From NCBI GenBank assembly GCA_029817715.1, contig JARUPY010000140.1, forward strand, positions 1 to 64,000: 64,000 nt of DNA, read 5' to 3'. The notes beneath the pieces were generated by a model. The model was not told the DNA's origin. It was given only the letters and a program-made list of their open reading frames with translations, and ran no database searches. A program made the translations under genes and the position numbers. How positions within the stretch are numbered: the stretch's first letter is position 1; every line of letters begins with the position of its first letter. Origin of the DNA: Melastoma dodecandrum (lineage: Eukaryota; Streptophyta; Magnoliopsida; Myrtales; Melastomataceae). Shown piece by piece: positions 16,356 through 56,276 of this stretch.

Positions 16356-16359
16356 AATC

Positions 16360-17060: not shown

Positions 17061-17065
17061 CTACT

Positions 17066-30406: not shown

Positions 30407-30417
30407 CTCCCCCTTAA
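30407..30417 (-). other. Polypurine tract of Copia element
   Basis: TTAAGGGGGAG on the minus strand, adjacent to the TGTTGC start of the 3' LTR. Confidence 0.85.
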
Positions 30418-30459
30418 AGTGATGCCTTCTGAATCAACCCGAGCTCAGAACGTAGATCC

Positions 30460-30906: not shown

Positions 30907-30911
30907 CTTTC

Positions 30912-33900: not shown

Positions 33901-34986
33901 TAAATAGCAGAGGAATTTTTCAAGACAAACCACGACCATACACAGCCAAAACTCTGGAGTTTGTTCGTCAACCTTAGGAAATTAGATACCCTGACCCGGT
34001 TTATAGGTCAACTCTTTTTCCACCGACAGAGTGAGCTTACTTTCCACCGGTTTATACACGGTAAGACATGCCTTACTTTACTTGGTTTAATTGAATTTCA
34101 TTCAAATTCGACAAAACTAATCACACTTACATTTTATTTCGCATGTACACTGAGCATGCGATTCCGGAAGGACAACTCCAAAACTTCGAATACAAACTGG
34201 AAGGCGTGTGTATCAAATCGCGCGGATCCTCCCCGGCCTAAAAACCACGAGCTCGAAGACAAAGCGGTCACAACCTTCAATATAAGGTACAAAGGGGAGG
34301 TGCGGGCCTCCCCGAATTTTTATTTAAGCCCACATGTAACGGATTGCGGGCCCAAGGGCATAGGCCCGCAATCACCGCCCTTCCCCGCTCCTTTTGATCT
34401 AAATAATTGTCTGTGCCTGTCCGCATGCCTTAGGCCCATAGGTTTATCGTCGCATGTGATTGTTAAACAAAAACACACGAGTTCGGGTCCAACGCCTGAA
34501 TCGGGTCCAACGCCCGTTAACCAAAAGCAAACTTTTGGAGCAAACGCCACATTTTCGCATGTTTAGATGTAAGAGTTAGTAAATAGGAATCCCCGAATCT
34601 ACTCTGGTTTTTCCGACTTAAACCAAGCTTTTAAATTAAGTCGGTGGCGACTCCGTAATAGTTTACCTAGGTTAAACAACAACACATTTTTTTACGAAGT
34701 CATTTTGGATGAGTGACGGCGACACGAGCCGCTCCTGGAACCTCCCGAAGCTTCCTCCTCGGGTCATGCGCTCCTTTTCGCCCGTCGCCTCTTAAGGAGC
34801 ATGGAGACGATCGGCGAAAAGACTGGGCAGACCCGGTCAGGAATCAAAGGAGGGACCGCCCTGGGCTTTTCCGCAGTGTTCGACGCTCGAGTCGCGACGC
34901 CGACCGGAAGACTCTAGGGGAGCGGGCCCGGATCCTCGGGTCGTCCGAACCGCTGCGAGCGTGCTAGGCCGGAAGGCGCGCGTACA
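30912..34986 (+). repeat. 5' LTR of the large non-autonomous element
   Basis: 4075 bp. A GC-rich part (about 31800-33000) has open frames on both strands in several frames (up to 256 codons, proline- and serine-rich) without any known domain. These look like by-products of base composition. Sequence 33404-34076 is a truncated copy of the miniature element that is complete in the other LTR. Confidence 0.95.
33404..34076 (+). mobile_element. Truncated miniature LTR element with patchwork filler in the 5' LTR
   Basis: Sequence 33404-34035 equals the first 632 bp of the miniature element's LTR (42449 onward). It then breaks off in GAGTGAG and is followed by CTTAC, about 31 bp of filler (34041-34071), and CTTAC again before the shared flank TTTACTTGG. 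The filler contains TTTCCACCG, CGGTTTATA and ACACGGTAAGACATGC. Each of these occurs within a few hundred bases upstream, as expected for repair by short templated copying. Confidence 0.88.
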
Positions 34987-34993
34987 TCCCGGA

Positions 34994-35011
34994 TGGCGAC
35001 TCCGCTGGGGA
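34994..35011 (+). other. Primer-binding site of the large non-autonomous element
   Basis: TGGCGACTCCGCTGGGGA, seven bases after the 5' LTR end. It is the same site as in the Tat element at 16338-16355 apart from two bases. Confidence 0.85.
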
Positions 35012-37085
35012 AATGCATGTGGATTCCTTTCGAACGCTCTTACATTTTTAATCCACATGCGGAGAGGAGTTCTTGTTTGCGTGTGTAATTGCTTGGCTCG
35101 GTGCCCTTTCTATGATCTCATGATTGTGTTTGTTTACTGCTTTCCTAGGCATATCTAGGTGTGCCCGAACCCGGGGCTAGGATTTTTAGGGGGGTCACCG
35201 AAAGGCTCAGCCTGCTGCTATTTGCGGTATGGTTTTTTTGGCCGGGGCCCCGCCTCCCTTAGTCCGAGGGAAGTTTAGAAGCATTCATCCGAGAGCCTAG
35301 TATTGATTGCCCGCTACAGGTACCAGACGCCACACGTGTATTTGTTTGTTACTGAGTGACTGCTATATGTGCAGGGACAGGTGTCAGGTACGCTTTGTCT
35401 GCTATAACTGTAAAACTAACAATGCTCGTTTTTGCAGTTGGGTCGAGCTTATTACAGTGGGCTTCAAGAAACCTCGTTTGTCTTATTACCCTACTTGATA
35501 TTACCGCCTATTGCATATCATACATTTGGGCAACCACATGAGTGTCCGTCTAATTATAGTTTTCAAATTAACAAATCATTTACAATAATTGTTTCATGAC
35601 ATTATTGCATTTCACTTGTAAATGCATACACATATACGAGTGCGATTAAGCAACAACATAAACTTATCATACATCGATTACATTATTGCATGATAATAAT
35701 CCAATCCTTCTCTCTACTTTCTTTTCGAGGATTAATACTTCAACACGACTCCTCGAATGGGACTAAGGACAATGCATGACAATTACAAATTTATAAGCAC
35801 AACAACACCAGGGATTACTCAACGGCTACCAATGCATACAACAACATGCAGGCCAAAGGTGCTCGACGACTGTCAAAGTCCAAAACCAGATGAACAACAA
35901 CTCAGACAAGGATTTCCTGATTGCTATCAAAGACAAAGTTATGTCCAGACATGCAACAACACGAGATCCATTGATGGGTACCAAGGCCTGAAGCCAAACA
36001 TCCAAGCACGAACACCATAGATCACCCAACGGCTACCAAAGTTCAAAGTCGAATCTACAACAACATGAAAACCCCAAGGAGGTTACATCTCACCAGCCAA
36101 CCACAGTCAACATCAGAGCTAATGACAAGCCCATAGAGCCATTCACGGACATGCTACAATCGGACACACTGGGAACATCGCGCCTCTACTGATCCGACAA
36201 CCGCTCCAAAGAAACAGAAGCAATCTCACAACGTCATCAGTAGGCACAACCGGCACCAACGGAAACATCATTCCAAACAGGGACAATTCCTCAGCTTACA
36301 ACTCAATAACATAATCCAGCACAAGGGGCAAACCCCATCATTCACAACGGCATCGCGAGATCAAGACAGCTGCGAGCAATCAACCCCCAAATATGAACAC
36401 TTCATTCAACCTCATCGTTTCTCCAACAACAAGAACTTGACGAATGTCGGATCCACAGCATCCCAACGACAAAAACATGAACATGGACGAGATTCTTCAA
36501 GCGACGGCGAACACATAGCGCGACTGGCATTAGAAACTCCCATTCGCTCTATTCGCCTTCCAATAGTTCAAAACATACATGATGAACTTATCGATATTTA
36601 AACTGCTAACACCAAGACATCCATTTTACCTCGCAGGTATAAGATGTCTCGTCTGGGCTCACACAACAGCTTACAAAATACCAAAGAACATGATGTCTAC
36701 CCAACGACGACGCATACTTCGACTGGGGCAATTCCCTTTGAATTCCTTACGGCACCCAAGCGGTCATCCCGACAGTATTCAACCACCGACTCTCACCAAA
36801 GAACAGAAGAGAAGGTCAGTCACCGCATCACTCATGGGCAAAAAACAAGCACCTCGGCCCACCACATGAGCGGCCAATTCCCTAGCCCGCCCACCACATT
36901 TGCGGTCATCGCCCACGCGCACCACAAAAAGCCATCAACTTTGCACATCCGGGGCATTCAACCGAAGTCAATCATCTTATCGAAGAGAACCGTCACAAAT
37001 ACTCAACGTGGACACTCTTCGATATTACAATACATGAAAGGGAGTATCTATTCCTTGATCAATTCTTTCTTGCAAAAATAAATTA

Positions 37086-38640
37086 CATGAGCTCACTTAT
37101 TTTAGCCCTTGTCGCATGTTGACGAAGGCGATGGTGGCAGGGTGAACAATTTTGAGCCAAAGCGTCAAAATATCATTCGTCGTCAACAAAACGACAATCT
37201 ACATGAAAGGGAGTATTCGTTCATCAACTAATACCTTCTCTGCAGAACAAGTTACATGAGCTCACTTGTTTTTCCCTTTGGCTTGTCTTATAGGTACATG
37301 AACATCCTAGACAGACGACGAAGGCGAAGGTGGTAAGGTGAAAAAGTTTCGAGCCAAAGTTTCAAAACGGCCTTCGTTGGCAAAACAACAACGACGACAA
37401 GACGAGAACAATCCTGGGGCAAATCTCCTAGCGATCCTAGGGCAAATCCCCGACTAATCCAGGGGCAAATCTCTGAGTGATCATAGACATATCTCCGAGC
37501 GATCCTGGGGCATCACCTCCAAGCTATCCCGGGACAAGACAGAGCAATCTCGATTAATTCCCCGTTGACAAACTAACGAATCACATGAAAGAAGTACATG
37601 AACACCCTAGACGGACAATCAATGGATTTCAAACCAAAGCTTCAAAACAACATGTCATCAACAAGACAACAAATTACATGAAAAGGGTACATGAGCGCCC
37701 TAGGCAGACAATGAAGACAAACAATAAAGCTTCAAACAAGAACACAACCTTCATCAACAAACTTCTTTATATTCCCAAAGAACTGGGGCAATGAACATCG
37801 ATAATACACATGAAAAGGGAGAATCACACAGTCATTACTCTCTTCATCAAATTAAACGAGATTACATGAGCTTATTTCGTTTACGTCCTTTGTCTTGTGG
37901 GCAGGTACAAGAGCTCCTCACACGAATGGTACAAAACTCCTATGGCAAAGGCGAGGGTGGTAGGGCGGCAAAGCTTTAAGCCAAAGTCTTGTAGCGATTT
38001 CGTCAAACCTTCGATTCCATCGGACGAAGACGCAATGACGAGATCATACAGAAGGGAAGTATCAAAACTCTACTTCGCCTTTCATATAAATGAAGTTACA
38101 TGAGCGAACTTCATTCCTACTCTAAAAGAAACAAGTTACATGAGCTCACTTGTTGTCTGTCCTTTGCCTAGTGTAGGTACATAAGCATCCTACATTACAG
38201 ACAAAGGCGCGGGCGGTTGGGTGGAAAATTTCGAGCCAAAGCTTCGAAACTGCCTTTGTCATCACCAAAGATGACCATACCAAAAGAGAGTATCATCGAC
38301 ACTGCTCTCTAACAAAATTTCTCATAATTCCCCAGATGGAGTCGTATCTCTATTTCCCCAGTTGGAGTCCTGCATCTATTCAAACTGGAATTGATTATAT
38401 GCATCACATTCCTCAACAAAGATCGAATATACAATCATATTCTTCCTGAACTATCATTGACGCGGACATATTCATCTCATCTCCCCAGCGGAAATTTTAC
38501 TTCATTAACTTCTCAAGCAAGAGTCGAAGTACATGAACTAACATCGTCTCTGTCCGTTGTCAACTGTGTAGGTACATGGGCATCCTCATAGTACGGTACA
38601 AACTCCTAGGCAACGGCGTGGGTGGTCAGGTGGAAGCCGT
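37086..38640 (+). repeat. Diverged repeat module inside the large non-autonomous element
   Basis: A module of about 120-150 bp recurs about six times at irregular spacing (about 37086, 37252, 37590/37675, 37862, 38130, 38530). The core is TTACATGAGCTCACTT, then AGGTACATGAGCATCC, then a piece like GACAAAGGCG-GGTGGT-GGGTG, then TTTCGAGCCAAAGCTT. Copies are diverged but keep the order of these phrases. Confidence 0.75.
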
Positions 38641-39943
38641 TTGATTCTAACCTCAAAGAGCATGACTGGGGCATGAAAGTGCAAACACTTCCTCCTCAAA
38701 GTGCACAAGAACACTACAGAGGTTTGAGTATCTAAACCTATTCAATTATTAAACATTCGTGTGCCCATTTGCATATAATTTGGGATTATCTTTAATAAAA
38801 CGTTTCTGAGCGAGAATGGAGAAGGCAAACCTTTTCCCAAACACTTACCCAGAGTGATGAGTGAAAACACTGTAAGGATTCATACACAAGCATTCAGGCG
38901 GATAACGAATCCTTTGACAAAAGATGCTCTAAACCGGAATGAGATCGAGCATTTCTTCTCTACCCCAAACACGAAACATCAACCATTGCTAACCCCTTTC
39001 GAGCCAAAGTTGAAGTTTTCGTATGCACTACACCTAACAAGTCTAAGGACCGCCTCACATCGAGGTTAAAGGAGATCTTGTAGCTAGAAACCGAAAGCAA
39101 CGGATCGTAGGCTACACTTCCTTAAAATTCAAGCAGAGAGGCGCCATCGACAACTAGGCCTACCAGTTGTGTCGTTCCTGAGGACCAAATTTCTCAAAGA
39201 CTTTCCCAAAGAGCACAGATACCAAGGAAAAGTACCAGAAAACAGAGTGGGGCAAGTCCCTATGATCCAGTAAAGAAAAAGCAAAATCAGCGCAAAGACC
39301 AAAGTCTTCAAAAGCAAAGCGCAAGATGAAAATCAAAAGAGAAAAATAAAGCACCAAGACCAACATTGACGGTCGCAAAAGCGAAGGTGCTATCCTTCAA
39401 AGACAAAGCTTTCCCAAAAATGGATTGTTCACGGCTACCAGTAAGCCAATCATTCATCCCCAACAAAACACATCAACTGGTGACCTGTCTAATGGATGGA
39501 AAATTTGCTTGAATGGTGAAACCTCTACGATCCCGTAGCTTCCGATGAGGTCCTTAAACTCCTTCTTTCAAACAACTAATTTAAACTTTCACTTTAAAGG
39601 CCTTATGCCGAAGCCACATTATAACCCAAGCAAAGACTCCTTCGACCGGTACATGAGCATCCATGTCAAAGGAATTCCGAAGTCCAACTGAAATGGCTTC
39701 CAGAAATGAGAGTAAAACATGAGTGAAATCAGAAAACCTTCTCTGCTCTCGCTTGGAAGCATGCTTGTAAAGAGAAAACAAAACAAGCATAATATGCATG
39801 TAAATCTAGCTATATTTATTTTCACTATGACTAATGATTTTCTTGAAGAGCTTTTAGGGTGCTTGTCGACCAAAGATACTCTCGAGATATAATTTGAGGT
39901 ATTCCTGATATCCTTGCGAGCGAATCTTCCCAGATTCCCTCTC

Positions 39944-39957
39944 AAGGAGGGGCAAAC
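39944..39957 (+). other. Polypurine tract of the large non-autonomous element
   Basis: AAGGAGGGGCAAAC, directly before the TGTAATACC start of the 3' LTR. Compare the Tat tract AAAGAGGGGCAAA. Confidence 0.88.
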
Positions 39958-42448
39958 TGTAATACCTCAAATTTACATGCGGTCCACGAACAATGATTCT
40001 CGGCCCATCGTGAGCCCAATATTCATTCCCCAAAAAGGCCAAAGCCCAAACCTATACAACTTTAGAATCTATTTTACACAAGAATATGATAAAATGAAAT
40101 AAATAAAAATATGACAACAATAATTTCTTCCTCAGAACATTCCCTTGAGATCCACTGTAAAAGCAAGACGTGTGCTAGGCGTTTGACTGGGTACATGTAT
40201 AGAAAACAAAATAGACCAAAGCCAATGACCAAACTCATACACCAGCACCAGTTCCCCCTTTTTGCTTCCCAAAGTTGCAGCCAATGGCCAGCCAACACTC
40301 CCCAGCTAACCGAATCAATCTCGGGCACGCCAGCAGTCACCCGTGCCAAATATGCAAGACATTGCGCCATTAGACTTAAAACAAAGCACTAATCTGGGTG
40401 TTCCTACAAGTTCACTAGCTGCAATCTACTCAGCGAACCACTCTCCCGACACCTTATGTCATGTAGCCAGCCACAGACCGCATATTATGAGACGCCTTTA
40501 ACAACGGCATTCCTCTCTAATTTCAGCTAGCAAACCCAACCCAAAGCCAAAGAAAAAGCCTAGCACTAAAGCTTTAGCCCACATTTCCCCAAAGAACCCA
40601 AGGTAGCTTGGCCCTCAATAATTTGCCAAAGCCAAATCTCAGCCCAATTCACAATCCAGCCCAAACCAAAAGAAGGAACAAGGCTCAATTGCAGGGCAAT
40701 TCCCGTGTCCCAAATCTCCTGAACGACCGCACCAAATCCCCCTCATTAATGCCTGCGGAAGATTAAAGCACACGAATTGCAAACAACTTCCTTAAATCCC
40801 AACAAAATGGGATGAATTCCAAGGATACTAGTAAAAAAAGAACGGTTTCAGTTGAAGAGAATTGAGGGATATAAATGGAGAATTCTCTGGAACGCGAAGA
40901 GGGGGAGGAGAGAACAGTTACAAAAGACCTACCAAATTCTGGGGGGTTTATTTTCCACAGGGAGAGGGGGAGATAAAAAGATGGTCTTTCTCCCCTCTTC
41001 CGGGACTCCTTTCAACAACCGAAAAAAAGGGTCTCAACCCACCTGCAATCTCCTCACCAAGGTTAGAAGAGGAAGGCACCATGGGAAACCCCCCCTCGAT
41101 GGCCAAACCAAGCAAACAGTCCACAACAATAGCGGAGAGTCATACCTCAAGCGGCGACAGACTTCGGCCCTCCTGGATGCGATACGGACAACATTAGTAT
41201 CGTCCCGGGAAGTCCTCCTTGTGCTTTGATTTGTTTCCTTTTACGTGCAGGGATACGCCATGGCGACGGTGGCCTCGCCACGGTTGCGTTCATTCTCTAA
41301 AAAGCGGCTCCCCATTTCCTCTCCCCTCCTCCAGCCCCAAGGCGGCTCCTTATCCCGGCTTCCCGACGGTCTCCCCCGAAGCCATAACAACAGCCACATT
41401 CCAGCTTCCCCCGGTGTCTCCCACGGCGAGCCTTCCTCCCGCGACCAGCCCCACGGCGACGGCGAAGCCACCTCTCTCCGGCGTCCTCCTCGCCAACAAC
41501 CCAACTCCGGCGTTCCCAGGTCCCACGGCGGCGGACCTTGCTTCCCCGACGCGCCCAAGTCCGGCCACGGCAACCAGAAGCTCCACAGCGGCATCGACCT
41601 CCAATAGCGGACGTCCATCCATGGCAGCATAACAGTTCCTCATGGGCATCCAAGGCGGCTCTCCCATCTCAGTTTTCCGACCCCCAACAGCCCGTCCCCG
41701 GCGAAGACAAGGCGGCCGTGATCAGCCACCTCGGACACGGAACCCGCTTCTCTCCGGCGTCCTCCCTCAGCATCAACTTCTCCCCTGACGTCCCCGAGCA
41801 TCATGGTGGCAGCACCCACTTTCTCCGGCGTCCCCGAGCTACACGGTGGCGGCTCCACCTTTCCCCCGCATCTCCCGACCTCCCGAGTTCGGTAGCAGCT
41901 CCCTTTCTCCGACGGCAGCCCGTCCCCGGCAACCCATCCGCCTCCCAGCTCCGATCCGGTCTCCTCAACAACCCGGCGAGAACACCTTAAACGGGGAAGC
42001 TTCAGCCAATCGTGGAAAACCCACACCCCCCTGTTCGCAATTGGGGTTTTTTCTAAAGGAAGAAAGGAATGACCGAGGCCTTCCTTCCCCCTTTCAGCCA
42101 GGTAAGTTTTCCTTTTTTTTTTAATTGTTAAATGTTTTTTTTTTTATTATTGATTAAATACTATTCACTTTGAATGTTGCCTGGGCATGCGTTAATTTTA
42201 ATTTTTAGATTTGTTGAAATTATCAAAGTTCACGTGACTTCTATTGATTTGATAAATCAAGTATTCTTTTTAGTATCTGCACTTACTCGTCTTAAAATTT
42301 GCATCAATATGTATATTGCTAATTCGCATTTTTGTCCATCTGTTTCTTTGTTGTTTTGTATCGAAAATGCAATGGGATTATACGGATGTCTTCGACAACG
42401 TGCATTCGATTTGAGCAACATCAATCAACACGGTAAGACATGCCTTAC

Positions 42449-44569
42449 TGTTGACATGGCAAATAATTTTGGGCCTGAACTTAGAACAGAAACCCAGTAA
42501 TCCTTCAAGTCATACTCCGAGTCGGCCCGAGATGCAGTCGTCATTAGGTCGACTCATGACAAAGTCGACTAGCTCGACTCATGACGAGGTCGACTAGGTC
42601 GACTTATGAACGGAGTCGACTAGGTCGACTCACGACGAAGGAATATGGTAATCAAAGTCAACCAAGATGACTCAACAGTAGCTAAGTCTACTAGTAGGGT
42701 CAAGTCGACGGAATTCTGGATAAGTCGACCAAGTCGGTCGTAGTCCGTACAGATCAGTTAAGTCGACAAGGTTGGAATAAATTTATGCATTTTCAATCAC
42801 GTTTGTTAAGGATCGTAACTGATTCTAATATCCAGGAACGTGATCCCACATATAAAGGAGGTTGTTGAGACACTCCCACGATAATAGGGATCACGATCTA
42901 TAACACGATCTATCTGTTACGTGTTAAACACGTACAAGTCCTCTATAAATAGCAGAGGAATTTTTCAAGACAAACCACGACCATACACAGCCAAAACTCT
43001 GGAGTTTGTTCGTCAACCTTAGGAAATTAGATACCCTGACCCGGTTTATAGGTCAACTCTTTTTCCACCGACAGAGTGAGCTCGTAGGGCCTTTGTCGTC
43101 AACCCCCGCCAGCGACACCACCGACGGAGTGAGCTCGTAGGGCCTTCGTCACAACTCTCCGCCAGCGACCACTACCGACGGAGCGAGCTTCCAAGGCCTT
43201 CGTCACGACCTTCCGCCAGCAACCACCATAGACGGAGTGAGCTTCCAAGGCCTTCGTCACGTGTTCTCCGCCGCTACAAGATCCGACATCGTCACCATCG
43301 TGTCCCTTTTTCCCTTTTAATGGCTGTAAGCCCTCTTCTTTTAATTCTCTAAAGATTGTAAGACTTGCATTATTTCTGTATAAAGTTAGTGCATCTTCTT
43401 ACTGGCGACCACAATACAACTACTGTGAGTCCATTGCCAAATATTTCCGACGTGATCCGTTCCGTGCGCGAACACGTTTTTGGCGACCACAGTGGGAGTT
43501 CTGCTGAGTCGACACAGCCAACCCAGCATAAAAGGGGGGCTTATGTTGACATGGCAAATAATTTTGGGCCTGAACTTAGAACAGAAACCCAGTAATCCTT
43601 CAAGTCATACTCCGAGTCGGCCCGAGATGCAGTCGTCATTAGGTCGACTCATGACAAAGTCGACTAGCTCGACTCATGACGAGGACGACTAGGTCGACTT
43701 ATGAACGGAGTCGACTAGGTCGACTCACGACGAAGGAATATGGTAATCAAAGTCAACCAAGATGACTCAACAGTAGCTAAGTCTACTAGTAGGGTCAAGT
43801 CGACGGAATTCTGGATAAGTCGACCAAGTCGGTCGTAGTCCGTACAGATCAGTTAAGTCGACAAGGTTGGAATAAATTTATGCATTTTCAATCACGTTTG
43901 TTAAGGATCGTAACTGATTCTAATATCCAGGAACGTGATCCCACATATAAAGGAGGTTGTTGAGACACTCCCACGATAATAGGGATCACGATCTATAACA
44001 CGATCTATCTGTTACGTGTTAAACACGTACAAGTCCTCTATAAATAGCAGAGGAATTTTTCAAGACAAACCACGACCATACACAGCCAAAACTCTGGAGT
44101 TTGTTCGTCAACCTTAGGAAATTAGATACCCTGACCCGGTTTATAGGTCAACTCTTTTTCCACCGACAGAGTGAGCTCGTAGGGCCTTTGTCGTCAACCC
44201 CCGCCAGCGACACCACCGACGGAGTGAGCTCGTAGGGCCTTCGTCACAACTCTCCGCCAGCGACCACTACCGACGGAGCGAGCTTCCAAGGCCTTCGTCA
44301 CGACCTTCCGCCAGCAACCACCATAGACGGAGTGAGCTTCCAAGGCCTTCGTCACGTGTTCTCCGCCGCTACAAGATCCTACATCGTCACCATCGTGTCC
44401 CTTTTTCCCTTTTAATGGCTGTAAGCCCTTTTCTTTTAATTCTCTAAAGATTGTAAGACTTGCATTATTTCTGTATAAAGTTAGTGCATCTTCTTACTGG
44501 CGACCACAATACAACTACTGTGAGTCCATTGCCAAATATTTCCGACGTGATCCGTTCCGTGCGCGAACA
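42449..44569 (+). mobile_element. Miniature two-LTR element with a 69-bp interior, nested in an LTR
   Basis: Two 1026-bp LTRs (42449-43474 and 43544-44569) start TGTTGACATGG and end GCGCGAACA, and differ by only about three bases. The exact target duplication CTTAC is at 42444-42448 and 44570-44574. The interior 43475-43543 consists of little more than a primer-binding site, TGGCGACCACAGTGGGA (43481-43497), and a polypurine tract AAAAGGGGGG before the second LTR. It resembles TRIM/SMART elements in having no interior, but its LTRs are far longer than usual for those. Each LTR has a TATA-like CTCTATAAATAGCAGAGG (about 42942 and 44037), a GTCGACT-rich tract and a four-unit direct repeat. Confidence 0.95.
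43067..43277 (+). repeat. Four tandem units of about 54 bp in the miniature element LTR
   Basis: The units begin CCGACAGAGTGAGC, CCGACGGAGTGAGC, CCGACGGAGCGAGC and TAGACGGAGTGAGC, each continuing with an AGGCCTTCGTC-like piece and a CCGCCAGC-like piece. The same array is present in the second LTR (about 44160-44372). Confidence 0.85.
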
Positions 44570-45489
44570 CTTACTTTACTTGGTTTAATTGAATTTCATT
44601 CAAATTCGACAAAACTAATCACACTTACATTTTATTTCGCATGTACACTGAGCATGCGATTCCGGAAGGACAACTCCAAAACTTCGAATACAAACTGGAA
44701 GGCGTGTGTATCAAATCGCGCGGATCCTCCCCGGCCTAAAAACCACGAGCTCGAAGACAAAGCGGTCACAACCTTCAATATAAGGTACAAAGGGGAGGTG
44801 CGGGCCTCCCCGAATTTTTATTTAAGCCCACATGTAACGGATTGCGGGCCCAAGGGCATAGGCCCGCAATCACCGCCCTTCCCCGCTCCTTTTGATCTAA
44901 ATAATTGTCTGTGCCTGTCCGCATGCCTTAGGCCCATAGGTTTATCGTCGCATGTGATTGTTAAACAAAAACACACGAGTTCGGGTCCAACGCCTGAATC
45001 GGGTCCAACGCCCGTTAACCAAAAGCAAACTTTTGGAGCAAACGCCACATTTTCGCATGTTTAGATGTAAGAGTTAGTAAATAGGAATCCCCGAATCTAC
45101 TCTGGTTTTTCCGACTTAAACCAAGCTTTTAAATTAAGTCGGTGGCGACTCCGTAATAGTTTACCTAGGTTAAACAACAACACATTTTTTTACGAAGTCA
45201 TTTTGGATGAGTGACGGCGACACGAGCCGCTCCTGGAACCTCCCGAAGCTTCCTCCTCGGGTCATGCGCTCCTTTTCGCCCGTCGCCTCTTAAGGAGCAT
45301 GGAGACGATCGGCGAAAAGACTGGGCAGACCCGGTCAGGAATCAAAGGAGGGACCGCCCTGGGCTTTTCCGCAGTGTTCGACGCTCGAGTCGCGACGCCG
45401 ACCGGAAGACTCTAGGGGAGCGGGCCCGGATCCTCGGGTCGTCCGAACCGCTGCGCGCGTGCTAGGCCGGAGGGCGCGCGTACACTTTC

Positions 45490-48400
45490 CTATAGAATAA
45501 GCCCACGTCAAGAGTAGAATTAACGTACTTCAATATATTCTTTGCTCCCTCGAAATGTGGCTTCCTTGGCGTTTGCATATATCGGCTGACAACACCAACA
45601 GAGAAGGCAATATCCGGTCTTGTTATAGTCAAATAAATCAGGGTTCCCACAAGGACGCGATAGAGACGAAGATTCGATAGTTGTGTTCCTTCATCACAAC
45701 GAAGCTTCGTACCCATATCGAGGGGTGTTGACCGCTTCTTCCCGTTTATCATTCCAAACTTCTCAACAAGCTTCTTGGCGTAACTGGATTGAGACACAAA
45801 AATCCCATCATCCAAATTTTCAATTTGCATTTCGAGAAAGTTACTCACCTCGCCTGGCTTCTTCATGTCAAAACGCAACGATAGTTCTTCTTGAAGCCAA
45901 GCAACTTCTGAATAATTGCTGCCCATTAAAATAATATCGTCAACATATAATAGAACAACCACCAAAAGTCCTTGATTTTTCTTGATGAAGAGACTTGAAT
46001 CCGAGTTGGATACCGCATAACCACAAAGACATAAGAACTCTGCGATTTTTCCGAACCAAGCTCGTGGGGCTTGCTTCAATCCATAAAGTGCTTTTTTCAA
46101 CTTGCACGCATAATCCGGATGATTTTCCGATTCAAATCCGATTGGCTGCTCCATATATATATATATGTCTATCAAGTTCTCCATATAAGAATGCATTTTT
46201 GACATCTAGTTGCCACAGTTTCCACCCGAAACTAGCCGCTAAAGCAAGAATGGTGCGTACCGAAGTCATCTTCGCAACCGGACTGAAAGTTTCCTCGTAA
46301 TCTTCTCCATATTTTTGAGAGAATCCCCGAGCGACCAGCCTTGCCTTGAATCGATCTATGCTCCCGTCGGCTTTCCTTTTAATGCAAAAGACCCATTTAC
46401 ATGACACCGGTTGCACTTCGGGTGGCTTCGGAACTAAATCCCAAGTTTCATTTTTCAGCAATGCATCCATTTCTTCCTTCATGGCAAACTCCCACTCCCT
46501 TACTCCTTTAGCTTCCTCATACGAAGTTGGTTCTTCATCATCAATCGGATTAGCAAGGAAGCATGAAAAAGTAGTGACAAAATTTTTGTCTCTATAACGA
46601 AGAGGTCGATCAACAAACCTCCTTGGTCGCTGATTTCTTTGATCATTTTCACCTTGATTAATTCTCCCCCTTTCATCTTGAACCCCTTCCGAAGAATTTT
46701 CTGAAAACTGAGACAACGGTAAGGTAACCATGTCATTCTCTTTACTAGGTGGATCTTGAAAGTGATAGGAGGAAATCTCATCGAAGATGACGTCGCGAGA
46801 TACGACACATTTATTTGTCGTAGGATCCAAACATCTCCAGCCCTTTCTCCATTCGTCGTAGCCGACGAAAACACATTTGATTGCTTTTGCATCCAACTTA
46901 CTCCTTTGAGAATCCGGCAAATGAACATAGCAAATAGATCCAAATACTCGAAGATGCTTCACATTTGGCTTAACACCATACAACAATTCGTATGGTGCCT
47001 TGTTATTTGTCGGACTAAGGGGCGTCCGATTGATCACATGGGCTGCACAATTCATTCCTTCCGCCCGCAACTCCTTGAGCAATTTCTTTGCGTGCAACCA
47101 ACTCTTACAAATCTCCACAAGATGTCTGATCTTTCTCTCCGCAACTTCATTTTGTTGCGGTGTTTTCGGACATGACAACTCCCTCTTAATACCATTGTTT
47201 CGGCAGAAAATGAGAAACTCATTTGAGCAAAACTCGCCACCATTGTCCGTCCGCAACGTCTTGATTTTTCTGCCCAACTCCCCTTCGACGATTTTCTTAA
47301 AGTCGAGAAACAAAGAGAATGTCTCCGACTTATGCTTCGCAAAATAAACCCAAGTGAACTGAGAATAATCGTCCACAAACAATAACATACAATTACCTCC
47401 GGAGTAAGATGAAGTTTTTGTTGGACCCATCAAATCACTATGGATCCATTCTAAGGGAGCCGTGCACCGAGACGTAGAGTTCTCGAAAGGAAGTCGATGT
47501 GACTTGCCGAATTGACATCCCTCACAAACTTTTTCGTCGTCAATCTTCAAAGACTCGGGCAATCCATCCACCAACTTCTTTTGGATAATAGCCTTCATTT
47601 TTGTCATATTTATATGACCAAGCCTCGCATGCCACAAGGATGATGTATCATTCCTCCTCATCTTCTTGATATAAGAATCTGAAGCCGACAAAACAAATAA
47701 ATCTTTCACCCTCGTACACGTATGAACAACATCAGCCTTGATTTCCTTGATGTTCCGAAGAAACTTCACATCTCGTGACCCAAAGAGCACGAAATTTCCG
47801 GCATCCACCGTGTTTGTGACGGAGAAAAGATTCTTTTGTATTCCTGGCACATGATAAACACTATTGAGAGTAATTGATTCTCCACAATCATTGTTGATCA
47901 TAACAGTTCCTTCCTTTCGAATTTTATGAACGGTATTATCCGCGGTCATGATTCCATTCCCTCCGTCATGTGTCCAGGAATGCGAGAAAATAGTCTCATC
48001 TCCGGTAATATGGTGACCGCATCCAGAATCCACGATCCACTCTTTGTTGGTAGAAGGTTTCTTGCTTGAACTTCCTTCGGCCATCAAACAAGGTACCCAC
48101 GGCGAATCTTCGTTGACTGATTCGGCGAGAAAACAATTACTCCAATCTTCTTCCTTTTGTTCTTCTTGGTTCTCCGCAACATCCGCATAATTTCCCGACT
48201 TCAATTTAACTCGGCAATTCCTCTTAATGTGACCGAGTTTCCCGCAGCGATAACACTTGAAACTCTTCTTCGAGAACTTCGAAGATTCTCCTTCCGGTTT
48301 ACTTTCATTTTTCACCGAGTTACCCTTCTTTGTGAACAAAGCATTGCTCGACTCTTCCTTGATGCTCGTTCCAGCCATTTGTCTAGCCAACGACTCTTGC

Positions 48401-48972
48401 GAGGAGAGGAGATTCTCAAACTCTTCAAGCGACGGTTGTTGAGCCCACCCTTGAATTGAAGTGACAAATGGAGTGTACTCCGGCCGAAGTCCATGGATGA
48501 TGTACCGCTTCATCTGAGCTTCCGAAATCCTCTCGTCCGGATTTAGAAGAGAGATTTCCGAACATAAGTTTTTCATCTTCAGAAAATATTCTGAACACGG
48601 CATTCCATCTTGCTTTGCAACCGCCAACTCATTCTCGAGCAATTGTAGCCGAGCTTCGTTCTTCTTGTTGAACAAACGATCAAGCGTATTCCAAATCTCT
48701 CGAGCCGACGCACATCCCATTATGTGCTCGAAGATCTCATGTGAAATGGACCTCTTTAAAACAAATTCCGTCTTCGCATTACGTTGCTTCCAATTCTTGA
48801 GCGCTTCCGCATTTGCGTCAACGTTCTCCGGAGCAACGGCACCATCGGCGACGACGACATCCCATAGATCTTCACCGACAAGATACGATTCCATACAGGT
48901 TTTCCAAATCCGATAGTTGGACTGAGTCAAGAGCATCATTCCAAGACCCGCAACACGACTGCCACCTTCCAT
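45490..48972 (-). pseudogene. Copia gag-protease-integrase-reverse transcriptase polyprotein
   Basis: The start chosen is the Met of MEGGSRVAGLGMM (48972), soon after the primer-binding site. The order is: gag with copia-type helices; zinc knuckle CYRCGKLGHIKRNC (about 48255); protease WIVDSGCGHHITG (about 48035); integrase zinc region HARLGHINM to CEGCQFGK; catalytic core with Asp in WIHSDLMGP, Asp in RTDNGGEF and Glu in NEVAERK; RT from WVFCIKRKADGS to YVDDIILMGS (about 45935). The gag-to-RT frame is open for over 2.8 kb. It is then lost at an (AT)7 run (46152-46165); RT continues in another frame to LFYRK, where the nested element cuts it off from RNase H. Defective in cis. Confidence 0.95.
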
Positions 48973-49012
48973 ATCGAAGATCAACGATACCTTCTTCACG
49001 AGCGCAACCAAA

Positions 49013-49024
49013 GCTCTGATACCA
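49013..49024 (-). other. Primer-binding site of Copia element
   Basis: TGGTATCAGAGC on the minus strand, directly next to the 5' LTR. It is the classic complement of initiator tRNA-Met used by plant copia elements. Confidence 0.95.
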
Positions 49025-49302
49025 TGTAACAAAAAAAAACGAAGCACCGAGAATCACTCGATGATCGAACCGTGAAGAAAAAAAAACTTGGATTGATACA
49101 ACTTAATTCAAAAAAAAGGTTACAACTATTTATAAAACTAAAGACATTATAGGAAAAGTAAACATAATAAAAGGAGACTTTTAAGTTCCCGAAACATTGT
49201 CTCCCTTGATAGTTGAAGAGTCTTCTTGGAATACTAAGCATCACCACCGTTTCAATGAACCAATGAGACTCTTCGAAAATCACATCACTTTAATTTACAA
49301 CA
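49025..49302 (-). repeat. 5' LTR of Copia element
   Basis: 278 bp, mate of 30127-30406. Followed by the target duplication GTATT (49303-49307). Confidence 0.95.
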
Positions 49303-49307
49303 GTATT

Positions 49308-49753
49308 CTCTCGAGGCTATGAAAAGTTTGGCTTTACTCGCAGTGCTGAGGGAATAACATACCGGGAGTGGGCACCTGGAGCACAGTCTGCAGCATTGAT
49401 CGGAGACTTCAATAACTGGAATCCCAATGCCGATATTATGACCCAGAATAAATTTGGAGTTTGGGAACTCTTCCTTCCAAACAATGTCGATGGTTCTCCA
49501 GCAATTCCTCAAGGCTCTCGAGTTAAGATTCGTATGAATACACCATCTGGTCTAAAAGACTATTCCTGCTCGGATCAAATTCTCTGTTCAAACTCGGCGA
49601 AATCACGTACAATGGAATTTACTATGATCCCTCGGACGAGGAAAAGTATGTCTTCAGGCATCCTCGACCTAAGAGACCCAAGTCTCTTAGGATTTATGAG
49701 TCCCATGTCGGAATGAGCAGCCCGGAGCCAAAAATAATCACTTACGCCAACTT
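49308..49753 (+). pseudogene. Starch branching enzyme coding fragment, right part
   Basis: This continues the frame broken at 30126: [40 protein letters not shown] (carbohydrate-binding module 48 region), [29 protein letters not shown]. After a frameshift near 49565 it gives [36 protein letters not shown] and ITYANF, where it stops. The catalytic barrel is absent. About 240 codons run over both halves with no intron, although plant SBE II genes are cut by several introns here. It joins directly to the transporter fragment. Confidence 0.92.
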
Positions 49754-49755
49754 CC

Positions 49756-49860
49756 ATGGACGATTTCCTCAAGGAGTTCTTCCCTAAGGTTTACAGGGGG
49801 AAGCAGATGCACCTCCACGAGACCGACTACTGCAAATACGACAACCGGTTACTCACCCTC
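49756..49860 (+). pseudogene. STP-type hexose/H+ symporter coding fragment
   Basis: The frame [20 protein letters not shown], then ETDYCKYDNRLLTL, matches the first extracellular loop of plant sugar transporter proteins (FLKxFFPxVY, CKYDNQxLTLF). Only about 35 codons remain. It abuts starch branching enzyme on the left and cellulose-synthase-like sequence on the right without spacer. Confidence 0.82.
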
Positions 49861-49861
49861 G

Positions 49862-50690
49862 ATGGCCGTCGCCATGGCCTGCGAGTCTTGGTTCACTTTC
49901 ATCTGGATACTCACCTTCAGCAACAAGGGGAACCCCATCGCCTACAGGACTTACCCTCACCTCCTCTTGCTGAGGGAGGAGAGGGAGTTTCCTCCAATCG
50001 ACATGTTCGTGACCACGGCAGATCCTGCCTTGAAGCCACCCTTTATCACCGCGAACATGGTCCTGTCTTTGCTGGCCCTTGACTACCCGGCGGATAAGCT
50101 TGCCTGTTTCGTGTCTGATGACTGCTGCTCCTCCTTGACCTACTGCTCCCTAAGGGAAGCTTCTGAATTCGCCAAGTCATGGGTGCCCTTCAGCAAGAAG
50201 TACCGTGTCCAGACTAGAGCACCCTTCCGCTACTTCACAGACCACGACAGTAAGGTCGAGTCATCGTCTGAGGAGTTCCGATGAGCATATCATGCCGTAA
50301 AGGAAGAATACGAGAAGATGTGCCAGAAGATTGCAGCCGCTGGCCAGAAGACAAGTCCATGTGATCTCACCGGAGACTTCGGTGAGTTTTCGAATATCGA
50401 CCGCAGAGATCATCCCATCATCATCAAGCTCATTCGGGAAGATAAGGATGGCTCCGATCCGGATGGAATTCCTCGCCTGGTTTACATAGAAGAGTCCGAA
50501 ATACCATCACAACTACAAGGCCGGCGCGATGAACGTCTTGACCAGAGTTTCTGGGCTTTTGACCAACGCGTCGTACATGCTGAACGTCGACCGCGACATG
50601 TTTGCAAACAACCCTCAGATCGTGTTGCACGACCTGTGTCTCTTCCTCGGGACCGAGTCTGAAGTGGACTGCGCTTTCGTTCAGTCCCCG
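49862..50690 (+). pseudogene. Cellulose synthase-like (CslB/CslH type) coding fragment
   Basis: Glycosyltransferase family 2 enzymes that build cell-wall polysaccharides. Blocks: MAVAMACESWFTFIWILTFS, FPPIDMFVTTADPALKPPFI, VLSLLALDYPADKLACFVSD (first Asp motif), CSLREASEFAKSWVPF, KYRVQTRAPFRYF, EEYEKMCQKI, GEFSNIDRRDHP. After a frameshift near 50493 come [36 protein letters not shown] (DxD motif) and [13 protein letters not shown] at 50282-50284 stands in EEFR/AYHAVKEE. The later catalytic motifs and most membrane helices are missing. Confidence 0.92.
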
Positions 50691-50965
50691 CAGAAGTTTG
50701 TAGGGATTATGGGCTTCAACAATCACCACGATGCCAACAATGACCTGAACCGGTCAAAGGCCTCGTACCATTAGCTTGGCGAGGATATGAATATTTCCAT
50801 CAACAGCTACGTCAGCCTCCAGATGAGCAATGACGGGGGATCCGTCGCCATGTCTGTGGATAACAGCAGTATCGCGTTGAACGAGTCATATACTCAGATT
50901 CTGAACCATCAGGGCCTGAGGAGGTGGCTAACGATAATTACTCTGTTGCTCACAGCGTCAATTGA
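50690..50965 (+). pseudogene. RAF-like protein kinase (STY13 type) N-terminal coding fragment
   Basis: The frame reads [20 protein letters not shown], a TAG where Lys would be expected in YHKLGE, then LGEDMNISINSYVSLQMSND, GGSVAMSVDNSS and ILNHQGL. After a frameshift it gives VANDNYSVAHSVN. This is the Ser-rich region before the kinase domain of a RAF-like MAPKKK family (At4g31170/STY13 type in my recollection). The kinase domain itself is absent. Confidence 0.78.
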
Positions 50966-51464
50966 CATGGGATGCCGACGGAGGCTGCACTAAAGGTTCT
51001 TGTTGAAAAGATGGGACTTCCAGTTGGAGCCACTGGTTCAACAAACAAGAGCGAGCTGCTGCGCTGCTACCAGTGGTGGAGTGATCATGAGCGGAGGATT
51101 GCAACACTGGAGTTTGACCGTGACAGGAAGTCTATGGGTGTCATTCTCAACTCAAGATCAGGGAAGAAGTCACTGCTTGTTAAGGGAGCCGTCGGAAATC
51201 TGTTGGAGAGAAGCAGTGGTGTTCAACTGGCAGATGGCTCTGTTGTTGAGTTGGATTCCAACTCGAGGAGATGCATATTGCAGTCTCTCAATGAAATGAC
51301 CACCGAATCTCTACGCTGCCTTGGGTATGCCTATAAGAATGAGTTGCATGAGTTCGAGAGTTTCTGCCACAACAGGGAATTCCTCTGCAGCGCACGCAGT
51401 GTCCGCTTGGAATTTCAGCTCGAACCTAGACAGAGAATCCATAATCATCAGCCCCAAGTGTGAA
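50966..51464 (+). pseudogene. ER-type Ca2+-ATPase (ECA) coding fragment
   Basis: P-type pump that moves Ca2+ into the ER lumen. The frame has [71 protein letters not shown] and [12 protein letters not shown]. This is the nucleotide-binding domain of ECA1/ECA4-type pumps (KGAVENLLER motif, here [10 protein letters not shown]). About 130 codons are open; the end after ESFCHN is not recognisable. The phosphorylation Asp and membrane helices are not present. Confidence 0.92.
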
Positions 51465-52189
51465 GATAACTGATCTGTTGCAGGGTGTAGCCGTCACATT
51501 GCAGGAGCATTTCGCCACAGAGAGAAATCAGAGCATTGAATCGGCGACTCCTACAAATAGCTATGTTCATGGCACTAATACTAATATTTGTCGCCATAGG
51601 ACAATGGACTTGCACACATATTCCTCTTATGCCTTTGAACTGTGCTGCGGGCATCATACATCTCTCGGCAAATGGCAGACCTTCAAGCTTTCCTCCCGTT
51701 CCAGTTCTGCGAAGACGTCTCGGCACGATCAAGCTAGGTATGCTCTCTATCCTTATCCAAATCTTGCATTCAGACTTTCGTTTTTTTAGGATCAGTGACC
51801 AATTAAAACAGGAGATGTAATGGTCCCGGAAGAGGACTAAGCAGAGTTGTTACTAGCGAGGTGATATAGGAGGGCTCGATGGTAACTTTAGCCGTAGTTC
51901 CACATCTTTATTTTTGTTCTCAAATATATTTTTTTCCCTAAGCAAGCTTTGATCCCAAAATCCTCTATGGACTTATTAGATCAGGGTCAACGTATAATAC
52001 AGCGTTGACTATGCTTTTCATCGAATCGGTATGCATCCCGAATCACCTCACCTCCCGAAACTTGCTCGTTGCCTAGACTTCCAGGGAATGATGAGCTTAT
52101 AACCATTTCCTGTCAGAAATCTGACGTTTTATTATGATTATTATAAACATTATCCCATTTTTGTTTCATCCCATGCGTTGAACATTAAT
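51465..52189. other. Interval right of the coding mosaic, nothing recognised
   Basis: From 51465 to about 51790 three frames on both strands stay open for 90-110 codons. The base composition is like the neighbouring coding pieces, so a further captured fragment is possible, but I recognise no family. From about 51840 the sequence is AT-rich and non-coding. Confidence 0.5.
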
Positions 52190-52410
52190 GCTTTAACTGT
52201 ATAGTATTTATTATTTGCTCATGATATGCATTGCATTAAAAAAAGTCTTTAGTACCTAATTCCGGAACCTTAACCAATCACTATAGTTTTTCTAATTTGA
52301 ACTTAAACTAAGTTAGTGGCGACTCCAATACGTTTTCAAAATTCGAAATCTTATCGTCAAGGGAGGATATTCATTTTCAATGGAACCGGAAACGGAATCC
52401 ACCCACGACA
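52190..52410 (+). repeat. LTR end fragment related to the Tat gypsy element
   Basis: The reverse complement of 2501-2720 is recognisable: ATGCATTGCATT, CCTAATTCCGGAACCTTAAC, TTAGTGGCGACTCC, then GTCAAGGGAGGATATTCATT, ending CCACGACA. Only this terminal portion of an LTR was found; no TGTCATAACCC start is visible upstream. Divergence from both LTRs of the Tat element is clear. Confidence 0.75.
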
Positions 52411-53350
52411 ATTAAGTTTTTCTCGAGACACGATCTTCCAAATATCGATATATTTACTCGGAATAGTACCAATGAGTTGTCTTTTCTTGTTTTTCTTGTT
52501 TGATACTATAGTAAGGGAAACAGTTCATTCACATTAAATAACGAGACATGTGATATTTATATATCAAGCTTTCAAATGACATAACTTATGGGGCATATGG
52601 AACTAGGATAGTTAATTATAATAACTTTTAAATTTTTGTCACGTTTTTTAAAATTTTATCATTCAATCACTTTTTTTTTCTAATAAAATTCCAAATAGCT
52701 GATGTTCCTATGAAAGTGAATGCTTACATAACTTTCGTTGGCGCTTTTGATGGGATCCAGACAGATAACAATATATTTGTAGAATATATTAGACACCAGA
52801 ATGTGTTCCCATTGTGCAGTGTTCACGCGGCCGAAAGTCTCTCTGTGTCGGATCACTCGAATGTGTTGGGGGGGAGTAAAGCTGGTCGATCAGAGGTGAT
52901 CTTTTGGCGTGGTCGGCGGTCAGACCCTGCCCCCATTTCATTTTCTTATGTCCTGTCATTTTTAAATTTAAACGGGGAAGGTGGGGGCAGTTAAAGAAAC
53001 AGAGCTTACTGATTCCTTTCTTTTCTTTTCTTTTTTATATATTAAAATTAAAAGGAAAAGGAAAAGGTCCCCCGATTTGCTAATATGTGGTCACGTAGAA
53101 AAGCAAGATGTATTCCCCCTCCCCTCAATTTATGGTATTAATGAATATATATATATATCATCATCATGATCATCACCTCTCGCGTGCTTCTCCCTCCAAC
53201 CCTCCCTCTGCATTTGAACGCCCACTTTATCTAGATCCCATCCCACCCCCTTTATCCCGTCCCATTTTCCCATCCATCATCATCGTCGTCGTTGCCGTCA
53301 TCATCATAAACCGCTCTCTCTCTCTCTTACTCCTTTCTCCCTTCCATTGG
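52411..53350. other. Upstream region of TNL2
   Basis: Frames at 52710-52994 and 52981-53169 have no recognised motif. The region nearest the gene has an (AT)n run at about 53144-53158, ATCATC runs and a CTCTCTCTCT tract, then TTCCATTGG before the ATG, as in TNL1. Confidence 0.5.
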
Positions 53351-56276
53351 ATGGCGGGGACATCGGAAGCAGGGACTAGCCGTGGCAGTGTGAACACCCC
53401 CGATGGATCAGCTTACGATGTGTTCGTTAGCTTCAGGGGACCTGACACCCGGTACAACATCACCGACGTCCTTTATGTGTCCGTGAGGGAAAAGGGGATA
53501 CGCGTGTTCAGGGACACGGAGGACGTCCATCACGGCGAAGAGATCGGGGACGAGCTCCGTCGAGCTGTCCTGGACTCTAGGATCTACGTTGTTGTCTTCT
53601 CTAAAGGCTACGCATCGAGCGCGTCGTGCCTCCGAGAACTCGCCATGATGGTGGACTGCCGCAGGGACCCAGCCTCTAGGAAAGTCATCTTGCCCATCTT
53701 CTACAGAGTAAGCCCCAGCGACGTGAAGCTGCAAACTGATCGGTACCGGGACGCCCTCGAGAAGCACAAAGAAAAATACAATAAAGAGGATGTTAGAATG
53801 TGGAAGGAAGCTCTGAAGAAGGTTGGAGGTATCCGTGGTATGGAATACAAAAGAGATATTGGGTATATAACTTATAATCTTTAATCTTTCTCTTTCTTAT
53901 ATGATTATTTATGTCATTTCGAATATTTCAACAGCTGATGTTTCCTTTGAGCTTTTCCATGTTGTTAGTCGGCAGTTTTTCTAACAAATTGTTCTCCGTT
54001 AAATTTTGGGCAGCCTGGGCGAGTTTGTTAGTGCTGTGGTTGCGGATATTCTAAACAAGCTGAACATCAAATATAGGAGTTTGCCAAATCATCTCATAGG
54101 GATGGATGATCGCGTGGAGAATGTAATCGACATGTTGAATTTGAGTTCTCACTTTGAACGACATGTTGTGATGGTGCACGGCATGGGGGGCCTGGGGAAG
54201 ACAACACTGGCGAATGTCATCTTCAACAGAATCTCTTCCCGATTCGATGGATGCTGCTTCCTTGCCGATGTGCGAGAATCCTTGTCGACTGGTGTGAGGG
54301 GTGTTGAAAGGTTGCAAAAGAGGATATTGAGGGATATCTTCGGCAAATCGGATGGAGAAATTGGTGACTCTGGCGATGGAATGAATGAGATTCAAAGAAG
54401 GCTCCGCAACAGAAGGGTCCTTATCATTTTTGACGATGTCAGCGAGAGCAGTCAGATCCAAAAGTTGGTTGGAAATTTCGATTTCTTCGGGCCGGGAACA
54501 ATAATTATCGTCACGACGAGGTATAGGAGCGTTTGCGAGGGCCTTATGAGACCTAGTGATACTACTTATGAAGTGGAGGGAATAAGTGATGATCATGCTC
54601 TGCAACTCTTCAGTTGGCACGCATTTCATAGAGAGGGGCCTCCAAATGACTTTGTTGATTTATCGAAGCGGGTTATTCGTATGACCGGAAATCTTCCCTT
54701 AGCTTTGGAGGTGATCGGAGGGCACTTATTTCGAAAGGAAAAGAATAAATGGGAACATACATTGGAAAAGCTGGAGCGAGTGCCTCACAAAGACGTCTTG
54801 AATAAGCTGCGGATCAGCTACGATGACTTAGACGAGAGTGAGAAGCAGATTTTTTTGGACATTGCATGTTTTGTTCATAAAGTGATGCCAAGGGAGTATG
54901 CGAGTTACATGTGGGAAGCCTGTGGTTTTTTTCCAAAAAGTGGATTGGATGTCCTCCAGAACAGATCTTTGATAAAGCTACTGAATGTCGACGATGACAA
55001 TGACGATATTTGGAGAGACGATATGAAGAGATCCTATTTTTTTATATTTAAAGATAAGTATTGGATGCATGACTTAATTAGGGAGATGGGAAGGGACATT
55101 GTTAGTTCAGAGAGTCCCGGCAAGCACCGCAGCAGGCTGTGGGATCCTAAATTGGCCCTCAATGTCATACGCCAAAAGCAGGTGAGATGATAATAATAAT
55201 TAATAATGTTTTCCTGATGTATTGGATTGGACTCGATCTCTCTCTTTTGGCTTCCTCATTTCCTTTATGTTATGTTACCAGGGCACCGATCAAGTTTTAG
55301 CCATCAACCTGCGAGTTTCTCAACCTAGTTTTAGCCCTCGACGTAGTTACAAACTTTTAACCGGAAAGGAATTCATGGGCCTGTCCAATCTCAGGTTTGT
55401 CAACCTAGCAGTTGGAGCAGAATGAAGTGGGAAGTTTAGGAATTTCCGGACGAATCTATTGTGGCTATGTTGGCATGTGATGGCGTATCCCAGACCTTAT
55501 CCCTCTTTCTTCAAGATGGACAACCTCGTCCTTCTCTAGATTTCGGGGCATGGAATTACGGACAATTCAATGAAAGACATGGTATTAATTTCCTTAACCT
55601 TGTATCCATCTCTCATGATGCAGAAAATCAACATTAACTAATCATGGGATGATACTCGGTTTTTTTGTTATAATAGAGAATGGGTAATTTGAGAGTACTT
55701 CATATCTCGTGTTTGAAGATTACAAGACTGCCCGACCTCTCTCGTTTCCCAAAGCTGGAGATAATTGATCTCTTCCTTTGCGAGAAATTGAAAGAAATCC
55801 ACAGTTCTATCGGTGTAGTAGGGTGTCTTAAACGCCTGATGATAACCATGTGTAATAGCTTGACAAGGTTACCAGAAGAGCTTGGATCCGCAAAAGCTCT
55901 ACAAGAGCTCATTTTGATATGTTGTGAAGGAATTTCAGAGTTGCCAGAGTCTATTGGGAGGCTAGAGGACCTGAGAATACTCCGTGGGCTTGGTTCTAAG
56001 ATAAGGAAGCTACCTTCCTGGATCAGCAATCTAATGAGCCTTGAGGAATTAACTGTCATCCAATGTGGTGATTTCGTGGGTGAAATCGCAGATCTGTCAA
56101 ACTTGAGAAGATTGAAAAGGGTGGATTTTCGTTCATGCAACTCCCTGATATACGTGCCTTGTATGGCTGGAGATTGCCACTTGAAGATTTATAATTGCGG
56201 GAAATTGCAGTCATTTGAAGGCCCGTATCGACAATACCACAACAAACGAAATAGGAGGAGACTGGAATTTGAATGA
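53351..56276 (+). pseudogene. TIR-NBS-LRR paralogue truncated after NB-ARC (TNL2)
   Basis: Same exon plan as TNL1: 53351-53862, 54014-55181, then 55282 onward. Exons 1 and 2 are open and in phase (560 codons), with TIR (YDVFVSFRGPDTRYN), P-loop GMGGLGKTTLA, kinase-2 RRVLIIFDDVS, GNLPLALEVIGG and WMHDLIREMG. In exon 3 a TGA at 55423-55425 stops the protein at about 607 residues; a second stop (TAG for Gln) follows near 55539. Exon 4 at 55680-56276 is still open but lacks about 90 codons of TNL1's LRR. In TIR the motif SVWCLREL of TNL1 is SASCLREL, so Trp is lost while Glu is kept. It is either a pseudogene or a gene for a short TIR-NBS protein. Confidence 0.9.

Follow-up and report, generated by a model that had tools for sequence, protein, structure and literature searches.

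Pieces of seven spliced host transcripts strung together within what appears to be a long terminal repeat of a Tat-like Ty3/gypsy family in Melastoma dodecandrum

Gene capture by plant LTR elements has so far been described for one to three genes in the available portions of the literature cited here. The closest known cases in those portions are maize Bs1 and a soybean TRIM. Bs1 is an LTR retroelement in which exon-only pieces of three unrelated host genes form a chimera (PMC13317346, PMC4717578), and the TRIM GmaRetroS15 has captured intronless exons of a casein kinase I-like gene (PMC4717578). Tan et al. 2016, as summarized in the accessible part of PMC5408686, described mRNA joined to LTR-retrotransposon cDNA by template switching at microsimilarity, and the same text treats several switches as theoretically possible in LTR-mediated retroposition. 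In Magnaporthe, a tripartite LINE chimera is described, in the available part of PMC2104539, as transcripts fused by successive template jumps, with 14-bp flanking repeats. Among titles and abstract openings of the open-licence literature, we recognised no description of a multi-gene cargo inside an LTR.

We analysed a 64,000-bp stretch of the Melastoma dodecandrum genome (the window; contig C41, positions 1-64000) and searched the 373-Mb genome (607 contigs) with window 49308-51464 and then with 51340-53300. The original prediction had named five host gene pieces lying end to end on the plus strand. Alignment to parental genes recovered all five, but the chain runs on beyond 51464, through two further pieces. 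The positions 29885-30126 and 49308-52103 thus make up one plus-strand chain of seven host gene pieces, the first of them split by a nested element:

29885 to 30126, plus strand: starch branching enzyme (SBE) piece, 5' part; the C118 copies carry the undeleted form
30127 to 49302, minus strand: nested Copia insertion splitting the SBE piece; gag-pol ORF 46132-49053, LTRs of ~0.28 kb
49308 to 49755, plus strand: rest of the SBE piece; CBM_48 2.4e-19; parent C497, paralogue C409
49750 to 49860, plus strand: STP hexose transporter piece; parent C601, C395 matching equally well
49861 to 50698, plus strand: piece of a CslB-like cellulose synthase, joining four exons; parental tandem pair on C589
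50690 to 50972, plus strand: single-exon piece of a STY13-like kinase; parent C270
50966 to 51362, plus strand: ECA-type Ca2+-ATPase piece, four exons joined; Cation_ATPase 3.4e-14; parent C263
51360 to 51455, plus strand: L-type lectin receptor kinase (LecRK) piece; parent C233 (two loci)
51451 to 52103, plus strand: piece of a small C184 gene, three exons joined and 3' part
52104 to 52247, plus strand: stretch resembling, by eye, the second LTR intron of relatives; seven-A run at 52238-52244
52248 to 52410, plus strand: LTR 3' end (...CCACCCACGACA), ~90% identical to other LTRs of the family

Parents for all seven pieces were located in the same genome. The first search matched the parental genes exon by exon, and the seventh parent (C184) came from the second search and was then aligned. 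Identities of piece to parent are 89-98% by exon for SBE, 95% for STP, 89-97% for CslB, 93% for STY13, 96-98% for ECA, 93% for LecRK and 93-97% for C184. The STP parent C601 encodes a Sugar_tr domain (1.8e-58), the LecRK parent (L027) encodes Lectin_legB (2.7e-63) plus a kinase domain, and the closest named match of the STY13-like parent is a Melastoma candidum protein (99%). The SBE stretch predicted at 29868-30126 is indeed SBE, with its start moved to 29885, where a deletion at AGTCT has removed the left side of this piece in the window copy (LTR U3, leader and first SBE exon). The undeleted C118 copies contain additional SBE sequence and the LTR leader upstream. Within the C184 piece, 188 bp (51708-51895) have no counterpart in the C184 parent, and one of the C118 copies, C118b, has an extra stretch of ~158 bp. 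A coding function of the mosaic is unlikely, because its pieces lie in different frames and contain stops.

Sequence comparison suggests that the mosaic sits within an LTR of a Ty3/gypsy Tat-like family, the Tat-like relative being linked to it by LTR similarity only. This carrier is an addition to the earlier reading. As in the available accounts of Bs1, an LTR element holds exon-only pieces of several host genes; those accounts differ from the present case, in which seven genes and 16 introns are involved, the cargo is inside the LTR, the family has several independent cargoes, and a leader is joined to a host exon at a splice junction. In Bs1 the cargo is internal to the element, with an LTR on either side, whereas the cargo here, as seen in the C118 stretches, is placed between U3/leader and the LTR 3' end and not in such an internal region. 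GmaRetroS15, likewise an LTR element with exons lacking introns, is presented in its source as holding one gene in a small TRIM, unlike the Tat-like LTR proposed here. Six successive mRNA-to-mRNA joins set the mosaic apart from LTR-mediated retroposition as outlined in the accessible part of PMC5408686. The Magnaporthe chimera, as far as its source was available, also fuses several transcripts, through LINE machinery, in three parts and with no LTR.

The genome contains seven copies of the mosaic (eight search rows, two being parts of one copy): the window copy, one on C433, two on C432, two on C118 (C118a and C118b) and a partial one on C437. They are 88-100% identical over long stretches. 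The window contains gene copies of a tandem TIR-NLR cluster:

21571 to 24846, plus strand: TIR-NLR gene copy (TIR and LRR) of the tandem cluster
53099 to 56273, plus strand: NLR-type gene copy with a TIR domain, beyond the 3' side of the mosaic

Downstream of every one of the seven, the cluster DNA is the same (in C432b, up to window position 53300), and transposition was therefore rejected as the source of the seven. Because of this shared flank, the mosaic appears to be one old insertion that was multiplied by segmental or cluster duplication.

All 16 parental introns falling within the pieces (SBE 8, CslB 3, ECA 3, C184 2) have GT-AG boundaries and are precisely absent from the mosaic; 15 of these losses are visible in the window copy. 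C118a has nine SBE exons, four CslB exons and four ECA exons joined, and the C184 piece joins three. For the 14 introns of SBE, CslB and ECA we asked for GT-AG ends and for the spliced 20-mer in one or more of three copies (window, C118a, C118b), allowing one mismatch; all 14 passed. The window does not pass for SBE intron 1, the corresponding part having been deleted, and C118b does not pass for SBE intron 8, at whose junction its alignment has a small gap. For C184, the spliced 20-mer of intron 2 is exact in the window, and the loss of intron 1, read by eye, fits with one mismatch. The STP, STY13-like and LecRK pieces are single-exon matches and are uninformative about introns. No intron remnants were seen at the joins that were read. 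The absence of introns, claimed at the outset, is thus borne out by intron-bearing parents in the same genome, and together with the clean joins and the LTR ends it supports the proposal of a multi-mRNA chimeric retrocopy. Helitrons, Pack-MULEs and other DNA transposons are the classic multi-gene collectors in plants, and capture at the DNA level by one of them is refuted by the intron test; the ends are moreover LTR ends, and relatives have 5-bp target duplications, leaving this origin virtually no credibility. As had been noted, no long terminal inverted repeat was found in inverted-repeat searches of the window.

Of the carrier LTR, the window mosaic copy retains only the LTR end at 52248-52410. 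In the C118 and C432b copies, an AT-rich stretch (partly absent in C118a), a TATA box and the leader precede SBE and match other loci, placing seven sense-strand, intron-free pieces between the LTR promoter/leader and the LTR 3' end. In C118b, the LTR extends from ~3507 to ~12163, with the leader to 3933 and the LTR end from 11996. The other loci retrieved (L035-L042) have a ~720-bp 3' part in common (ends cut in L037 and L038) and mostly also the 5' part and leader (L035 is without them), and their middles vary by group. Target duplications of 5 bp flank L036 (CCTAG), L041 (GTTAC), L042 (AGCGG) and C592 (GGTTA); the termini are TGTC...GACA in L036 and L041 and TATC...GACA in L042. No target duplication was found at the mosaic-bearing LTR (CAACG before, ATTAA after) or at the C34 LTR copy. 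The 19-kb stretches of the two C118 copies contain no LTR pair flanking the mosaic, the sole repeat pair in that of C118b being part of another inserted element, and no element with two LTRs bearing the mosaic cargo was found.

On C129, a cargo-type LTR is followed by the PBS-like sequence TGGCGACTTCGCTTGGGA and by a second, left-truncated LTR; the two share the duplication CCAAC and are 89.7% identical over 1553 columns. This pair shows that such long units are LTRs, and does not imply proven host cargo in both LTRs, because the middles of L039, L040 and L042 are only putative host cargo. None of the three frames of the L039 or L042 middle gave a Pfam match. The LTR at L041 has an RPL38e-like stretch in its cargo (PF01781 1.9e-6).

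The window itself includes a relative of the carrier that lacks cargo:

2501 to 17062, minus strand: two-LTR relative of the carrier (LTRs at 2501-3203 and 16360-17062, 703 bp each, 95% identical)

This element has a target duplication (CTACT) and a PBS-like site after its 5' LTR. Its minus-strand ORFs match Retrotrans_gag (2.6e-8), RT_RNaseH (6e-22), RVT_3, a second RNase H (1.8e-18), and rve, the integrase (1.5e-11); an RT core domain was not among the domain matches in the five ORFs scanned. We take the dual RNase H to be a mark of Tat elements, and the form of the PBS likewise. The LTR of this element matches U3 and the last 200-odd bases of the cargo-bearing LTRs, with no cargo between. 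The placement of the mosaic within a family LTR follows from the shared LTR parts, the target duplications, the C129 pair and this cargo-free relative. An extra minus-strand ORF with a DUF7745/plant mobile domain lies at 14552-15577 within the element.

The first junction of the chain differs in kind from the others. The leader of the mosaic stops exactly at the LTR splice donor, and the SBE piece begins exactly at a parental splice acceptor: past the donor the mosaic reads GGAAGATC, which in the SBE parent comes after CTTTGTAG. Our own rough estimate of meeting both borders by chance is ~4 in 100,000, assuming a single donor for every ~190 bases of leader and about 20 exon starts across an mRNA taken to be ~2.7 kb long. 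Among relatives, the leader intron is retained or removed. The leader runs on in L040, L042, C34 and L038 (...AATCCG/GTAAA, the slash marking the border). In L037 it reads AATCCG/GTACAC...CAAGCTAG/AGGGAG, of which L036 is the spliced form (AATCCG/AGGGAG), and the sequence of L039 corresponds to that of L042 after splicing. A second LTR intron, near the 3' part, is present in L036 and L037 and exactly gone in the upstream LTR fragment of C118b. The leader-SBE join therefore looks spliced and the other joins look like template switches, and this donor/acceptor pair suggests that the origin involved splicing in addition to template switching.

We considered a gene-trap insertion at an SBE locus and found none in the stretches of C497, C409 and C119. 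The insertion behind the leader-SBE fusion is unseen, as no LTR of the family lies within the 6-8 kb examined at each of the three loci. The C119 locus (L049, C119:4177500-4183500) is an 816-bp partial SBE copy made at the DNA level, introns included, and ~94% identical to C497.

The six gene-gene joins are seamless, as predicted, and have microhomology of ~3-9 bp, beyond the chance expectation. In 200,000 random joins drawn from the genomic sequence of the parental loci other than C184, six in all, mean microhomology was 0.68 bp, and the per-join probabilities of reaching at least 3, 5, 6, 7 and 9 bp were 0.053, 0.005, 0.0015, 0.0004 and 0.00005. We found 6 bp at SBE-STP, 9 bp at CslB-STY13, 3 bp at ECA-LecRK and 5 bp, read from the alignment, at LecRK-C184. 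The STP-CslB join has ~4 bp (ungapped count, 2), read by eye because of an indel, the window copy being without some bases beside the join. At STY13-ECA, the BLAST overlap gives 7 bp, and an ungapped display, one base out of register, gives 2. As far as read, the six joins fall within exons. All seven pieces are oriented as the LTR, a 1 in 128 outcome if orientation were random. Sense orientation, microhomology and location inside the LTR lead us to infer a reverse-transcription route that included template switching.

The cargo differs in other LTRs of this family. A CslB exon piece was also found at four additional loci that are 96-99% alike among themselves. Two of them, when extended (C34 and C592), proved to be LTRs of the same family; the C34 group is spread over four dispersed contigs. 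The C34 cargo comprises pieces of a SAM synthetase (S-AdoMet_synt_N 3.8e-39), a FERONIA-like kinase (PDB 6a5b 4.9e-33; parent C495, 97%), CslB (C589; by eye, exon 2 follows directly on the exon 1 end) and genes on C130 and C604, each with one intron lost, along with a weaker match to C272 (89%). In all, three introns are precisely lost in this cargo, one of them judged by eye. Its first part (L043:1860-2420) gave no Pfam match in two frames. Microhomology of ~2, 4 and 8 bp was read by eye at three of the four joins examined, the C604-C272 join being unreadable. The C34 CslB piece probably represents an independent capture, as it is nearer to the parent (97%) than to the mosaic (92%), and we read the C34 group as an independent mosaic in a second LTR group. 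In a third cargo group (L035-L038), a C136 gene has lost two introns: the loss of intron 1 is exact in C118b and L036, and that of intron 2 fits in C432b (one mismatch) and is altered in C118b.

The five C34 pieces whose sense could be judged (the C272 piece excluded) are all oriented as the LTR. This, like the uniform orientation of the mosaic, argues against break repair, in which a gap in the LTR would have been filled with several free cDNAs by end joining. Microhomology at the joins would fit end joining too, but the exact leader splice junction would be left unexplained, and we regard this origin as highly improbable.

These different cargoes indicate that capture was recurrent, which also fits stepwise capture, with one or two mRNAs taken up per retrotransposition cycle and the seven-part chain as the sum of cycles. 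Bs1 is described as three distinct transductions in the available part of PMC13317346. On the other hand, the pieces of the mosaic are broadly similar in identity to their parents, and no LTR with a subset of the chain was among the 52 best-scoring matches listed. Stepwise capture thus seems rather unlikely, though it deserves consideration.

The original prediction saw no poly(A) tract. This absence fits, and would be explained by, a carrier that is an LTR of a Ty3/gypsy Tat-like retrotransposon; there is, however, a run of seven A at 52238-52244 before the LTR end (nine in C118b). We read it as LTR sequence, since the relative L039 has CATTAGAAAATC at that place; it may possibly be the trace of a tail. 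The short A run, located past the last host piece and ahead of the LTR end, would suit a chimeric retrocopy made by LINE template jumping that landed in, or was patched into, an existing LTR, and bipartite and tripartite LINE chimeras are known from the available part of PMC2104539. Yet the A run has its counterpart in L039, no flanking direct repeat was read at the cargo ends, the left cargo join is a splice junction from LTR donor to host acceptor, and another LTR group of the family has a different multi-mRNA cargo with the same borders. We therefore find a LINE origin improbable.

We consider it probable that the mosaic is cargo in a Tat-like LTR that arose through splicing of the leader to SBE, template switching over seven mRNAs, one insertion and cluster duplication. 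An RNA initiated in the LTR, its leader spliced onto an SBE exon, would have been one template, and host mRNAs would have been packaged. Reverse transcription would begin by copying the LTR end, probably during synthesis of minus-strand strong-stop DNA from the PBS. The enzyme would then jump at short homologies through the C184, LecRK, ECA, STY13, CslB and STP mRNAs, copying would end on the SBE-leader RNA, and strand transfer would put the cargo into the LTR. A single insertion in the TIR-NLR cluster would later have given seven copies via cluster duplication. Such a strong-stop and strand-transfer route would lead to sense orientation, cargo between R and the LTR end, absence of a poly(A) tail and microhomology.

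More tentatively, we speculate that the family LTR is a resident exon trap, with a live leader donor, a live downstream acceptor and a replaceable slot between them. Transcripts begun in the LTR would first be spliced into host genes and template switching among co-packaged mRNAs would follow, repeatedly refilling the slot with host exons, and lineages with new cargo would spread as LTR copies. If this is true, the family would be an ongoing RNA-level exon shuffler. A family that repeatedly strings up to seven spliced mRNAs in its LTR, with spliced entry, would make the capture route readable from its junctions, including splicing, template switching and which cDNA strand was involved. It would also be a natural record of mRNAs entering retrotransposon particles, and the mosaic supplies chimeric sequence next to NLR genes.

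The Copia insertion is later than the mosaic. It is flanked by the target duplication GTATT (30122-30126 and 49303-49307), and the SBE piece is uninterrupted at this site in C118a, C118b and C432b. Within the insertion, segments ~9045 bp apart (30911-34371 and 39957-44869) match at 100% identity, and there is an additional step of 1095 bp (42449/43544); either the duplication took place very recently or it is an artefact of the assembly. In the C433 copy, just ~4.3 kb separates the Copia LTRs. The C118b copy contains another element, of ~4.7 kb with LTRs of ~0.21 kb, in its STP piece (L017/L018).
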